From assembly GCA_026390155.1 (NCBI GenBank), contig JAPLGL010000089.1:1-41577 (forward strand): a stretch of 41,577 nt of DNA. The letters are read 5' to 3'. Position numbers and translations under genes: made by a program. The stretch is from Caldisericota bacterium (GTDB lineage: Bacteria > Caldisericota > Caldisericia > Cryosericales > Cryosericaceae). Each line of letters starts with the position of its first letter. Position 1 is the stretch's first letter. Shown here piece by piece: positions 11,514 to 17,613 of this stretch. Under the pieces are notes generated by a model, which worked only from the letters and a program-made list of their open reading frames with translations, had not been told where the DNA came from and did no database searches.

Positions 11514-12080
11514 CTACTCGCCGGCTTTCGTCTCGGCCGGCTCCTGGTCTGCCTTGAACTCCCTGCTCTGCTGGATCAGGTCCTTAACCCACTCGGGCAG
11601 CTTGGCATAGACTGTATCTTCACCCTTCTCGGTATTGTACAGGACCACCGGGTTGACCGCTTCAGGGACAGGCGTCCCCTCGGGCACGCTCATGACGCCG
11701 GCCACGTACTCGTATACCTTCTCGGCGTTCCCGCCGTGAAGGATGGAGAGCAGGCAGGCAGCGCCTAGCATCCAACCGAGGGCAAATCCGTCGCGCTTTT
11801 CGGTGGCGGTGACCGGACGGCCAAGCCATGACTCCAGGTCCTTCCTCAGGTTGGCCTTGTCGTTGAGGCTCAGGGTGTACTTCTCGGAGATGATGGACGG
11901 GCGCCCGTCCTCCGTCAGGTCTGCTGGCAGCTCGAACTGGAACATGATCTTGTTCGCCCACCTGCCGAACTTGTCGGAGTACTGGGTTCCCAGGTCGATG
12001 ATGCCGTAGCAGCGTGCGACATGCGTCACGGTGGAAGTGACGCCCTTCTCTCCAGCCTCGTTCTTCGTGATCAGTCCCAA
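11514..12080 (-). CDS. Phage-type conserved hypothetical protein
   Basis: About 188 residues if it starts at TTG 12080, where AAGGGAGAGCACC lies upstream. The track's start at 12164 adds an Arg-rich stretch without homology signs. The core 'HVARCYGIIDLGTQ', then 'ELPADLTEDGRPSIISEKYTLSL' and 'NLRKDLESWLGRP' resembles a protein I associate with replication or recombination modules of phages, where it typically ends in WVKDLIQ(Q/K)S as here. Its function is not known to me. No other phage gene lies nearby, so it looks like an orphan remnant or a domesticated gene. Confidence 0.6.
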   Translation of the reverse strand: MGLITKNEAGEKGVTSTVTHVARCYGIIDLGTQYSDKFGRWANKIMFQFELPADLTEDGRPSIISEKYTLSLNDKANLRKDLESWLGRPVTATEKRDGFALGWMLGAACLLSILHGGNAEKVYEYVAGVMSVPEGTPVPEAVNPVVLYNTEKGEDTVYAKLPEWVKDLIQQSREFKADQEPAETKAGE

Positions 12081-12176
12081 GGTGCTCTCCCTTGCCGCCC
12101 TGCCACTTGTTGGCAAAATCGGTGCTTTCGGCGTTAAGTATGGGCGGCGGCGCCCGCGCGGCAACGTGCCTTGCGG

Positions 12177-12617
12177 TCAGCGCGGCAAGGTGAAGATGGA
12201 CGTGCCCCGGACCTGGACCAGCACGCTGGTGGTCGCCCCCGCGGTGTTGATCATGACACTGACCGTGTTCTTGCCGAAAAGAGCGTTGCTGGAAGTCTCC
12301 GTGGCATCGGGGCCGGCAAGGGGAAACTCAGAGACGTTCCAGTGCTCGCTGGCGCCTGAGGCGAAGGCGTCACGGTAGAACTGTACAACGTCCAGGAAAA
12401 GAAGGCCAGACTGGATGCGGACCTCGACGACACGCACCAGATCGTCGCTCCGGCCCGTCGTGCAGGACGTGACCGTGCCGGGGACGATCGGGACATCACT
12501 GGGGAATCCGCTCGGGAGGGATGTCCCGAAGTCGAACTCGCGGAATGCGAGTGTCATGACGAGAGCCAGCACAGTCACACCACACACGACGACCGGCAAC
12601 CAACGTTTTGCCACCAC
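12177..12617 (-). CDS. Membrane-anchored hypothetical protein
   Basis: The protein has 146 residues. One N-terminal membrane helix (WLPVVVCGVTVLALVMTLAF) is followed by an extracytoplasmic domain with 'FPSDVPIVPGTV', a short motif I have seen in envelope proteins of several anaerobes. The motif is followed by strands and a helix (LDVVQFYRDAFASG). I cannot assign a function. It is the first gene of a possible two-gene minus-strand unit with the phage-type gene; the gap between them is about 95 bases. Confidence 0.6.
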   Translation of the reverse strand: MVAKRWLPVVVCGVTVLALVMTLAFREFDFGTSLPSGFPSDVPIVPGTVTSCTTGRSDDLVRVVEVRIQSGLLFLDVVQFYRDAFASGASEHWNVSEFPLAGPDATETSSNALFGKNTVSVMINTAGATTSVLVQVRGTSIFTLPR

Positions 12618-13536: not shown

Positions 13537-13680
13537 ATGAGCGCGCGGGTCAGGCTCCTGCGAGTCTCCCTGCTGGTCCTTGCCATCCTCGGCATCGTCC
13601 TTGGTGCCATCAACGGCGAGGTCCGCACGGTACTCACCAAGGCCATCAACGTGTGCCTTCAGTGCATCGGCATCGGGTAG
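13537..13680 (+). CDS. CD1871A-family small CXXC membrane peptide
   Basis: This 47-residue gene is too short for the ORF track. ATG 13537 lies four bases after the TlpA stop, with AGCAGG as ribosome site. One membrane helix (LLRVSLLVLAILGIVLGAI) is followed by NGEVRTVLTKAINVCLQCIGIG, which matches the CD1871A-type peptide ending in CxxCIGIG. These peptides sit between a TlpA-type thioredoxin and a 4Fe-4S membrane protein, exactly as here. The two cysteines presumably exchange disulfides with the neighbours, which is inference. Confidence 0.85.
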   Translation: MSARVRLLRVSLLVLAILGIVLGAINGEVRTVLTKAINVCLQCIGIG

Positions 13681-13684
13681 ACGC

Positions 13685-14539
13685 ATGAGCTCGAGCAGGA
13701 CTGCGTTCCAGGGTGTTACCGCCGTCCTTCAGAATTCCTGGTTTGCCGGGTTCCTGCGCGGCCACGTCTGGCGCGGTGCCAGCAAAGCCGTCTGCGTCCC
13801 GGGGCTCAACTGCTACTCGTGTCCGGGCGCCTGGGGCTCCTGTCCCATCGGCTCCCTGCAGGCCGTCTTCAACCGTGCGAGCAACCGCGTCTCACTATAC
13901 GTCTCCGGGCTCATTGCACTCTTCGGCGTCCTGCTGGGGCGCGCCGTGTGCGGATGGATCTGCCCGTTCGGCCTCATCCAGGAACTGCTGTACCGCATCC
14001 GCTCGCGCAAGGTGCGTATCGGCCCGACGCCTCTGCGCTGCCTCAAGTACGCGGTCCTGGCCGTCCTGGTCATCCTCATGCCTTTGCTGACACGGGACGT
14101 CTTTGGCGTTGGAGACCCATGGTTTTGCAAGCTGGTCTGCCCCGCAGGCACGTTGGAAGCTGCCGTGCCTCTGATGGCCTTGAACGCGTCGCTGCGCGGT
14201 GCCGCAGGCTGGCTGTTTGCGTGGAAGCTCACCCTACTGACAGCCACGATCGTCTCGTCGCTCGTCATCTACCGTCCGTTTTGCCGCTTCGTCTGCCCGC
14301 TGGGCGCTATCTATGGACTCTTCAACCGCCTCAGCTTTGTTCAGTTGACCTTCAAAGAAGATACGTGTACACACTGTGGTGCGTGCACAGCAGTCTGCAA
14401 GATGGGCGTGGACCCATCAGTGAGCGCCACGGACCCGGAGTGCATCCGCTGCGGCGACTGCGTCGCCGTCTGCCCGGTGCACGCCTTGTCGTTGGGCCTG
14501 CCTCCTGTGCAGCGTCAGCGAACCACCATTACGGACTGA
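13685..14539 (+). CDS. NapH/YccM-like membrane polyferredoxin
   Basis: The protein has 284 residues. The start at 13685 is five bases after the CXXC-peptide stop; the track's 13580 start would overlap that gene. It has several membrane helices with Cys-Pro motifs at their ends: GLNCYSCPGAWGSCPIGS, VCGWICPFGLIQ, CKLVCPAG and CRFVCPLGAIYGLF. Two ferredoxin-type 4Fe-4S sites follow: CTHCGACTAVCKMG and CIRCGDCVAVCPVHA. NapH-type proteins move electrons between the quinone pool or cytoplasmic carriers and periplasmic partners. Co-transcription with TlpA and the CXXC peptide suggests it reduces that thiol pair. The next gene is convergent, ten bases away. Confidence 0.9.
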   Translation: MSSSRTAFQGVTAVLQNSWFAGFLRGHVWRGASKAVCVPGLNCYSCPGAWGSCPIGSLQAVFNRASNRVSLYVSGLIALFGVLLGRAVCGWICPFGLIQELLYRIRSRKVRIGPTPLRCLKYAVLAVLVILMPLLTRDVFGVGDPWFCKLVCPAGTLEAAVPLMALNASLRGAAGWLFAWKLTLLTATIVSSLVIYRPFCRFVCPLGAIYGLFNRLSFVQLTFKEDTCTHCGACTAVCKMGVDPSVSATDPECIRCGDCVAVCPVHALSLGLPPVQRQRTTITD

Positions 14540-14549
14540 GCCGCCACCC

Positions 14550-15656
14550 CTACGTCTGGAGGTGCAGTTCTTCGATGGCGCGCCAGAAGCACTGGAGGTC
14601 GTCGGGGCTGACCTCACCCGTGTGCGCGACAATCAGGCCGGTTGGGCCCATGTTCGCGTCAATGCCACGGCGGGCCAGCTCTGCGTGCAAATCCGCGACG
14701 TCCACACCCGCCAGCGGTCTCAGAGCCGTCAGCATCGCAGCCTCATGGCCGGGTGGCGCGAACACGCCGAACCCATGTGTTGCGGCTTCTTCCCGGAACG
14801 CCCGGGCAACCCCCTCGCACCGCTCAAACCGCGCGGAGAGTCCCTCGGCCTTGATACGGCGAAGGGCAGCGCACAGCGCAAAGACCAGGCTTGGAGGCAC
14901 CTCGGCCCCTGTCGGGGAGGACCATCGGGCCAACTCGATATAGAGTGGCATGGCAGCATCACGCCGCACCCTGCGCATGCTCAAGCGAGTGCTCACGGCT
15001 GCCAGCACGAGTCCTGGACAGCCTCCCAGCGTCGAAGCGCTGTCCGTGAACACCAGGTCGGCATGCCAATCGTCCATGCGCTGCTGCATGCAGCCGGTTG
15101 CCCACGTCCCGTCGACGACCAGCAGCGTCTCGGGAGCGACCTCGCGGATGACCGCAGCATAGTCGTCGATCGGAGCAACGATGCCACTGTCCGCGTCGAC
15201 GTGGGCTACGACAACAGTGGAAGGCCGGGTCTCGGTCAGGCGCGTGCGCAGGGCCCGCAGGTCGACGCTGCCGTCCTCCTGCGCCCGGAGAATGTCGACG
15301 ACACGACCGCGGCGCGACACGACGTAGGCGATGTGCTCTCCTTGCGGGCCGTGTCCGAGGACCAGAACGACGGCACCTGGGGGCGACGCCGCAACGACCG
15401 CGACCTCGATGCCGAGGGATGCTGCTCCGGGGACGACGACGATGCCGGCCTGCTCGGTCCCAAACAGGGACTTGAGTCCATCCCGACACTCGGTGTCTGC
15501 ACGCTCCACCTCGCGCCAGCTCTCGAACGATGTGGCGGAAGCCCGCAGAACGCCCCCAGCCGGGCACGCCCGCCCGGGGGCCAGCAGGAGATGTCTGCTC
15601 TGCACGGGTTGCTCGTCATGGACTTCTGCAGGCACCATCTGATGCTCGTCACCCAT
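14550..15656 (-). CDS. Class V aminotransferase-fold protein lacking the PLP lysine
   Basis: The protein has 368 residues, the length of alanine-glyoxylate/serine-pyruvate aminotransferases. Family features are visible: LLLAPGRAC near the N terminus, VVPGAASLGIEVAV (cofactor phosphate region), VVAHVDADSGIVAPI in place of the usual HxETSTG, and VVDGTWATGC with the conserved Asp (D182). The Schiff-base lysine, normally in 'TGSQKAL.PPG', is absent: the aligned segment reads TDSASTLGGCPG, with Ser208 at the lysine position. The codon is clear in the raw sequence. The protein is thus probably not a normal aminotransferase. AGGAGG precedes the start at 15656. Confidence 0.8.
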   Translation of the reverse strand: MGDEHQMVPAEVHDEQPVQSRHLLLAPGRACPAGGVLRASATSFESWREVERADTECRDGLKSLFGTEQAGIVVVPGAASLGIEVAVVAASPPGAVVLVLGHGPQGEHIAYVVSRRGRVVDILRAQEDGSVDLRALRTRLTETRPSTVVVAHVDADSGIVAPIDDYAAVIREVAPETLLVVDGTWATGCMQQRMDDWHADLVFTDSASTLGGCPGLVLAAVSTRLSMRRVRRDAAMPLYIELARWSSPTGAEVPPSLVFALCAALRRIKAEGLSARFERCEGVARAFREEAATHGFGVFAPPGHEAAMLTALRPLAGVDVADLHAELARRGIDANMGPTGLIVAHTGEVSPDDLQCFWRAIEELHLQT

Positions 15657-15837
15657 CGCCAGCCTCCTCTTCCTGCGGCGCTATCGGCCTCCCCGTCCAC
15701 ACACAGTGTCCGACAAGTGCTCCTCTACGCTTCCCAACGACAGCACGAACAAGCCTGCTGTTGCCACGACGCGCCCAGCAATCATCATACACATGAACCG
15801 CATGACGGCAACACTCGTGCTGAGCCGAGGCAACTTC

Positions 15838-15865
15838 TTGCGCGCTGCCGGCGCGGCTCTATAAT
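15838..15865 (+). promoter_or_regulatory. Promoter of the flavodoxin operon
   Basis: TTGCGC (15838-15843) and a perfect TATAAT (15860-15865) are 16 bases apart, in the divergent gap between the aminotransferase-fold gene and the first flavodoxin. The remaining bases of that 267-base gap show no gene. Confidence 0.75.
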
Positions 15866-15923
15866 AAGTTGAAGAGTGCTGCACTCGGGAGAAACTCGAC
15901 ATCGTCAAGTACGAGGGGGTCTT

Positions 15924-16436
15924 ATGGATACGTTGATCGTGTACTACAGCAGAAGTGGATCGACGAGAACCGTGGCAGCGGCATTGGCTCGCGGCGTTGG
16001 GGGGACCCTGCGCGAGCTGGTCGACGCAAACGCCCGGGCGAACCTGTTCGCAGCCGTCATCGCTGCACTGTTCCGAAGGTCCGCCCGCCTTGTCAGCCCA
16101 GACTACGACGTGGCCGCCTACGAGACCGTCGTGGTCATGACCCCTGTCTGGGCCGGGAACCCCACCCCGGCAGCCAACACGTTCCTGCGGACGGTCAATC
16201 TGACTGGCAAGAAGGTTCTGATCGTGGCACTCGGCGAGAGCGGCGACAACCTTGTCACGTCGAGCCGCCTCGAGAAGATGGCTCGCGACCGCGGGGGACA
16301 AGTGATCGGCGTCCATCACATCCATGGCCTCAACTCTTCCGGAAAGGCAGGGCCATCCGCCACGGCCGAGGAACTGCAGAACGAGGGGGGACACCTGGCC
16401 GACCTGCTGCGAGAGCCCGAGGACCAGGAGAGTTGA
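15924..16436 (+). CDS. Flavodoxin (copy 1)
   Basis: The protein has 170 residues. The FMN phosphate loop reads VYYSRSGSTRTVAAALA at residues 6-22, and the second strand region VVVMTPVWAGNPTPAANTFL carries the flavin-contacting aromatic. The start at 15924 follows GAGGGGG; the track's earlier start at 15876 has no ribosome site. It leads a three-gene unit: the FMN-binding protein starts two bases after its stop. The second flavodoxin is about as similar as expected for paralogues from an old duplication. Role: low-potential one-electron carrier in the cytoplasm; partners unknown. Confidence 0.9.
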   Translation: MDTLIVYYSRSGSTRTVAAALARGVGGTLRELVDANARANLFAAVIAALFRRSARLVSPDYDVAAYETVVVMTPVWAGNPTPAANTFLRTVNLTGKKVLIVALGESGDNLVTSSRLEKMARDRGGQVIGVHHIHGLNSSGKAGPSATAEELQNEGGHLADLLREPEDQES

Positions 16437-16438
16437 CC

Positions 16439-16834
16439 ATGCGTCGACACCCACGGCCACTGCGGATGCTCCTCATCCTGGTCGGCGTGCTGGTGGTATG
16501 CTCCCTGGTTTCGCAAGTCACCTACGGACGATGGCTCCAGCGCACTGCTGATGCCCTGGCCATGCATTCGCCCATCATATCGTATCGGTATCCCGGTATC
16601 TACGAGGGCAGTGCGCGGGTCGGGCACGTCGCCGCAGAGGTCCGCGTGACAATGGGGGCCCAGGGCATCACCGCCATCGAGTTCCTCCGGCGGCCGTTCG
16701 GAAAGATGGACCCGCTGATCGACCGGATCGTCAAGGCGGGCGGCGTACCGGTTGATGTCATCACCGGAGCCACAGTCAGCAGCAAGGTCGTGATGAAAGC
16801 CATCGACGATGCCCTCATGAAGCAGCAGCCGTGA
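16439..16834 (+). CDS. Membrane-anchored FMN-binding domain protein
   Basis: The protein has 131 residues. It has one N-terminal helix (MLLILVGVLVVCSLVS) and a compact FMN_bind domain. The motif VDVITGATVSSKVVMKAI near residues 102-119 matches the S/T-G-A-T-x-S/T-S signature where ApbE attaches FMN covalently to the second Thr in RnfG/NqrC-like proteins. It therefore probably carries flavin on the outer face of the membrane. It sits two bases after flavodoxin 1 and nine bases before flavodoxin 2. In the ORF track it is hidden within a longer ORF whose first half is out-of-frame with flavodoxin 1. Confidence 0.88.
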   Translation: MRRHPRPLRMLLILVGVLVVCSLVSQVTYGRWLQRTADALAMHSPIISYRYPGIYEGSARVGHVAAEVRVTMGAQGITAIEFLRRPFGKMDPLIDRIVKAGGVPVDVITGATVSSKVVMKAIDDALMKQQP

Positions 16835-16842
16835 CCTGAGCA

Positions 16843-17613
16843 GTGGACCTGCTCATCATCTACTACAGCCGCGAAGGGTCCACCAGGCAGATCGCGCGGG
16901 GACTGGCACAGGCGACCGGGGGCACCGTACGGGAACTGGTGGACAGCCGCAGGATGGCAAACGGGGGCATGTTCCGTGCCCTGCTCGCTGTCATGCTTGG
17001 CCTGGAGACGACGCTGGTGAACCCCGATTACACCGTCGAACCATATGAGCGGGTCGTGATCATGACGCCGATCTGGGTGGGCCGTCCAACGCCCGCTGTC
17101 ATGACGTTCATCGGCAATGCTGTGCTCAAAGGCAAGAAAACGTTTGTCGTGGCCGTCGGCAGCACTGCGGCCAACCCAGGGGCTATCGCCAGGCTGGAGA
17201 AGCGGCTGACAGCCCGTGGAGCCCTCGTTGTCGGACATAGTGACGCACTGGGGTACATCCCAGACCCAAAGGCAGTCCGTCCATCGGGCGAGGAACTCGC
17301 TGCTGAGGGAATTCTGCTCGCACAGACCGTCCGGCAGGCGTTCGAGCCACAGTCCCGATCACAGGCTACGTCTCCTGGCACTCCAGCACAACAAGAAGGC
17401 CGGCAGCGTATAGCTGCCGGCCTGGTCACTGAGAAGCCGTTCTCCCTAGTGATGCAGCAGGCTGATCATGATCCCCGCAGCAACGGCAGTACCAATAACG
17501 CCGGCGACGTTGGGACCCATGGCGTGCATGAGGAGGAAATTGGCAGGATTGTCCTTCTGCCCGACCTTCTGGCTGACCCGCGCGGCCATGGGGACAGCCG
17601 ACACGCCAGCTGA
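16843..17613 (+). CDS. Flavodoxin (copy 2) with aberrant C-terminal read-through
   Basis: The ORF has 256 residues from a GTG at 16843. Residues 1-165 are a flavodoxin parallel to copy 1: [25 protein letters not shown]-like '[14 protein letters not shown]', and [19 protein letters not shown]. The domain should end near RQAFEPQ (base 17355). The frame instead runs on through a perfect hairpin and 168 bases into the antisense of the sodium-pump beta gene, giving a tail with no domain character. A +1 shift would stop at TAG 17411-17413, inside the hairpin loop. Stop-codon loss or an unseen frameshift is likely. The start lacks a strong ribosome site, so coupling to the upstream gene is probable. 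Confidence 0.75.
17397..17423 (-). terminator. Terminator hairpin between convergent flavodoxin and sodium-pump genes
   Basis: AGGCCGGCAGC and GCTGCCGGCCT form a perfect 11-bp stem around GTATA. On the minus strand it lies 22 bases after the beta-subunit stop and is followed by TTCTTGTTGTG, so it best serves the sodium-pump operon. Confidence 0.75.

Follow-up and report, generated by a model that had tools for sequence, protein, structure and literature searches.

Proteins with the fold of PLP-dependent enzymes but no PLP lysine are known. ColD-type dehydratases carry a histidine in place of the lysine and use PMP as cofactor, and GcvPA (glycine decarboxylase subunit 1) and SPTLC1 are inactive fold-type I subunits devoid of the lysine. 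In human AGT, Thr263, Gln208 and the substrate-binding Arg360 are contacts in addition to those surrounding the PLP. The latter are Trp108, Ser158, His83, Asp183, Val185, Lys209 and Tyr260 (PMC3810726). A class V-related protein of M. tuberculosis, Rv3778c, has no PLP lysine; it was judged non-catalytic but possibly functional, and is listed as nonessential (PMC12910592). We analyzed a stretch of 41,577 nucleotides (the window) from a permafrost bacterium of the genus Candidatus Cryosericum, in which one gene encodes a lysine-less protein of the SPT/AGXT branch. In contrast, Rv3778c is distantly related to cysteine desulfurases, and its genome has active relatives. We consider it likely that the Cryosericum protein is a pseudoenzyme and the direct positional descendant of a normal PLP-dependent SPT/AGXT-type aminotransferase, which persists in sister families.

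The gene occupies positions 14550-15656 on the minus strand, starts with an ATG immediately preceded by AGGAGG, and encodes 368 amino acids. The ORF exceeds the Pfam cut-offs of Aminotran_5 (E 6e-12) and Aminotran_1_2 (E 8e-8), and its nearest solved proteins by phmmer are the serine-pyruvate/alanine-glyoxylate aminotransferases 2dr1 (E 1e-21), 6mfb and 2ch1. The homology is full-length, as the HHalign profile-profile comparison covers 343 columns (E 2e-41). With these structures and 1h0c the protein shares its length, the order of motifs and an equivalent of Asp182, whereas the PLP lysine is absent, the stacking, phosphate and substrate contacts are altered, and two small deletions affect the active site. 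No NCBIfam equivalog cut-off was reached by the ORF, the best being PhnW-AepZ, which scored 80.6 bits where 360.8 are required. An AF2 model built from a 5-sequence alignment had a pLDDT of 38, and a search of viral contigs for homologs to deepen this alignment yielded none; we infer the fold and the pocket by homology alone. Judged from its sequence, the protein is a member of SPT/AGXT by descent, with whole-length family homology in Pfam, phmmer, HHalign and the phylogenetic tree described below, and the label of aminotransferase should not be given to it.

The segment TDSASTLGGCPGL pairs without gaps with the SQK motif in three alignments, namely those by phmmer, HHalign and hmmsearch, and Ser208 (codon TCG, 15033-15035, minus strand) therefore occupies the lysine column. 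Lysine is found at this position in all ten class relatives compared, which belong to the sister families f2 and f3, and serine in all ten orthologs from Ca. Cryosericum, which share the motif TDS[AG]S. The Ser208 codon is TCG, TCA or TCC depending on the genus member; thus, synonymous changes have happened and serine was retained. The window protein has only two lysines, Lys62 and Lys269, and no conserved lysine was found in any alignment column of the Cryosericum family, so that no neighboring lysine is able to substitute. These data uphold the earlier note on this DNA, which had described a protein resembling class V aminotransferases, with serine in place of the lysine of the internal aldimine and the ring-binding aspartate of VVDG kept. 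The similarity is borne out by Pfam and all three alignment methods, and the serine, whose conservation the note had proposed to check, is no error, being present in independent assemblies. The note had also named a nearby lysine at the catalytic position as the observation that would speak against it; the family alignment offers none, independently of a structure model.

The remainder of the active site is altered as well. The lysine-bearing class relatives retain the motifs GSGT, HG[FY]FGDRF, HVDTSTG, DGVCAT, TGSQKA, FAT and FR[MI]GHMG, whose counterparts in the Cryosericum protein are, in the same order, GAAS, HGPQ[GC][DE][HR]I, HVDADSG, DGTWAT, TDSAST, GAE and LIVAHTG. Residue equivalences beyond the lysine motif are taken from the alignment. 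The invariant Asp182 (15111-15113, minus strand), which lies in VVDG and is equivalent to the pyridine-nitrogen Asp183 of AGT, is the sole canonical PLP contact clearly retained. Where an SPT/AGXT enzyme is expected to have an aromatic residue stacking on the ring (Trp108 of human AGT and Phe of the class relatives), the Cryosericum protein has an invariant Gln105 (15342-15344, minus strand), and Ala155 (15192-15194, minus strand; register counted by hand) takes the place of the O3' hydroxyl residue, which is Ser158 in human AGT and Thr in the relatives. Glu252 (14901-14903, minus strand) stands for the invariant Thr of FAT in the partner-subunit phosphate loop and adjoins a deletion of 6 residues at GAE; a second gap, of 5 residues, is located at LIVAHTG, which has no arginine, and the substrate-carboxylate arginine of FR[MI]GHMG is lost. 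In short motifs, GSGT has become GAAS, and GSQK has become DSAS. Across the genus, what was once the active-site motif hardly varies. A preferential re-fixing of the changed columns, as in a specialised new pocket, was considered and rejected, as 35% of the columns altered from the canonical invariant residue were re-fixed vs 47% of other columns.

The protein might still bind PLP or PMP non-covalently and use a lysine-free chemistry, as ColD-type dehydratases do. Lysine-less enzymes with the PLP fold provide a precedent, and the retained Asp182, the small hydroxyl residue preserved in GAAS and the near-invariance of the former active-site motif are consistent with such use. However, we regard it as unlikely because the stacking, O3', phosphate-loop, partner-loop and substrate-arginine contacts are changed. 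A glutamate stands for threonine in the phosphate region, and neither His, Lys nor another such base occupies the lysine position. Loss of catalysis, in contrast, is strongly supported by these comparisons. The pseudoenzyme would still fold as a class V dimer and would be free of cofactor, with PLP not carried as an aldimine and transamination impossible. It may act by binding a protein partner or, in its re-lined pocket, a small ligand. A non-catalytic role of this kind, binding or regulatory, has probably been retained across most of the genus.

In a tree of 35 sequences, to which long-branch and composition warnings apply, the Cryosericum pseudoenzymes form a single clade (support 100/100) that groups with the lysine-bearing enzymes of the sister families f2 and f3 (support 100/98). 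A node uniting f2 and f3 to the exclusion of the pseudoenzymes is weak (69/24). The stem of the pseudoenzyme clade measures 2.1 changes per site, while the tips inside the genus mostly have about 0.1. The lysine aminotransferases of f2 and f3 (e.g. L011-L020) are the closest relatives, with 27-32% identity; unlike the Cryosericum protein, they retain GPTPV, GSGT, HG[FY]FGDRF, TGSQK, FAT and FR[MI]GHMG in full. In each of the four f2 genomes, the lysine enzyme is located 2-4 kb from the gene that best matches the polyferredoxin of the window, which supports positional orthology. Given this synteny and the position of the serine family beside the f2 and f3 enzymes, the serine gene looks like the original aminotransferase gene altered in place. 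The change from Lys to Ser is fixed in all genus orthologs found, with one origin on the long stem followed by purifying selection.

An intact lysine-bearing SPT-type gene was not found in the Cryosericum genomes, in some of which incompleteness could hide a canonical paralog. The other PF00266 matches inspected in the genus are cysteine-desulfurase-like and other fold-I proteins. One contig of G009 (C44:5850-6275; L041:5850-6283) carries a canonical SPT-like N-terminus that is cut at the contig end and may represent an acquired gene or contamination; as an N-terminus at a contig edge, it is poor evidence for a canonical paralog in the genus.

These searches bear on the possibility that the protein forms a heteromer in which it is inactive and its partner is an active PLP enzyme, as in GcvPA-GcvPB or SPTLC1-SPTLC2. 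The class V fold is normally dimeric, and the two subunits share the active site at their interface; the genus does have a GcvPA-like protein (L080). However, GcvPA and SPTLC1 pair with an active homologous subunit, and no intact partner of this kind turned up in the genus, whose genomes are partly incomplete; neither the PF00266 matches inspected nor the canonical-like piece in G009 supplies one, which makes this explanation quite improbable. What is new in the Cryosericum protein, relative to the known lysine-less fold-type I proteins, is the origin in the SPT/AGXT branch, the genus-wide fixation and the conversion of an apparently sole copy. It offers a clear-cut natural example of the change from enzyme to pseudoenzyme, with one origin, syntenic lysine-bearing orthologs in a sister family and no active copy found, and can help to explore what the PLP fold is capable of without PLP. 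Annotation pipelines would name this gene an aminotransferase, crediting the organism with a reaction of the serine/alanine-glyoxylate type that is very likely impossible for it.

Orthologs were identified in 10 of the 15 Ca. Cryosericum genomes, most of which are incomplete: the copy in the window and nine others at 72-87% identity, from independent assemblies that include Ca. C. septentrionale SMC1 and Ca. C. terrychapinii SMC7. None of the ten frames is interrupted by a stop codon. Pairwise dN/dS against the window copy is 0.15-0.23, reaching about 0.35 between some close pairs, and substitutions are mostly at third codon positions. These ratios are comparable to those of tlpA, a nitroreductase and uncharacterized neighbors, and slightly above that of the polyferredoxin. 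A decaying relic or a sequencing or assembly error, to which the absence of the gene from the 94%-complete G004 and the long stem branch might point, is hardly credible, since ten open frames in independent assemblies, low dN/dS with third-position excess as in neighboring genes, and a serine retained through synonymous changes argue against it. The protein has lost its catalytic residue and is conserved and under selection, as is characteristic of a PLP fold-type I pseudoenzyme. The ortholog in G013 (L036:9231-10715; ORF of 502 aa) has an in-frame insert of ~120 aa near the N-terminus, which weakly resembles (26%) small proteins encoded at other places in the genus and lacks a Pfam match; it was rejected as a functional clue.

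Both the divergent flavodoxin operon and the convergent polyferredoxin reported in the earlier note are present. The operon is located on the plus strand and consists of a flavodoxin (15924-16436), an FMN-binding domain protein (FMN_bind, 16439-16834) and a second flavodoxin (16843-17613), and a TATAAT-type promoter is conserved in the spacer shared with the pseudoenzyme gene. On the convergent side are a NapH-like polyferredoxin (13685-14539, plus strand) and a TlpA-like protein. G001 and G007 have kept the pseudoenzyme and miss tlpA and the polyferredoxin at the locus; G004 has kept the latter two and misses the pseudoenzyme and the first flavodoxin. The first flavodoxin is present in 9 of the 10 genomes with the pseudoenzyme gene and in none of the five without it. 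This co-occurrence is a weak indication of a functional link, because the two genes lie side by side and several of the assemblies are not complete. A redox link is likewise weak, given that G004 lacks the gene together with the first flavodoxin and that the polyferredoxin is not a constant neighbor.

The most plausible site of action would be in or beside the divergent flavodoxin/FMN-binding redox operon, and among the three proposals of the note (non-covalent PLP, a regulator or a new chemistry), a regulator would fit best. It can be speculated, tentatively and with considerable doubt, that the in-place conversion of a core aminotransferase left Ca. Cryosericum devoid of an active copy, and that the lysine-less protein, with its rebuilt pocket (invariant Gln105, Trp185, Asp205, Ser206, Ser208 and Glu252), has a new ligand and acts there as a sensor or controller of electron transfer by flavodoxins.

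Several minor observations concern the neighboring genes. The polyferredoxin ORF with a TTG start is probably too long over 13580-13685, where orthologs have stops, and the ATG at 13685 fits better. Recoding of TGA in the polyferredoxin orthologs was considered and rejected, as the TGA codons lie upstream of this likely start. Two uncharacterized genes at 11514-12617 (216 and 146 aa), which have no Pfam match, are conserved beside the block in most of the genus. Finally, L078 (G000:C146, near 15807-16109) is a possible flavodoxin-rubrerythrin fusion, with a Pfam match to rubrerythrin (E 3e-10) and an N-terminal half that is flavodoxin-like by eye.
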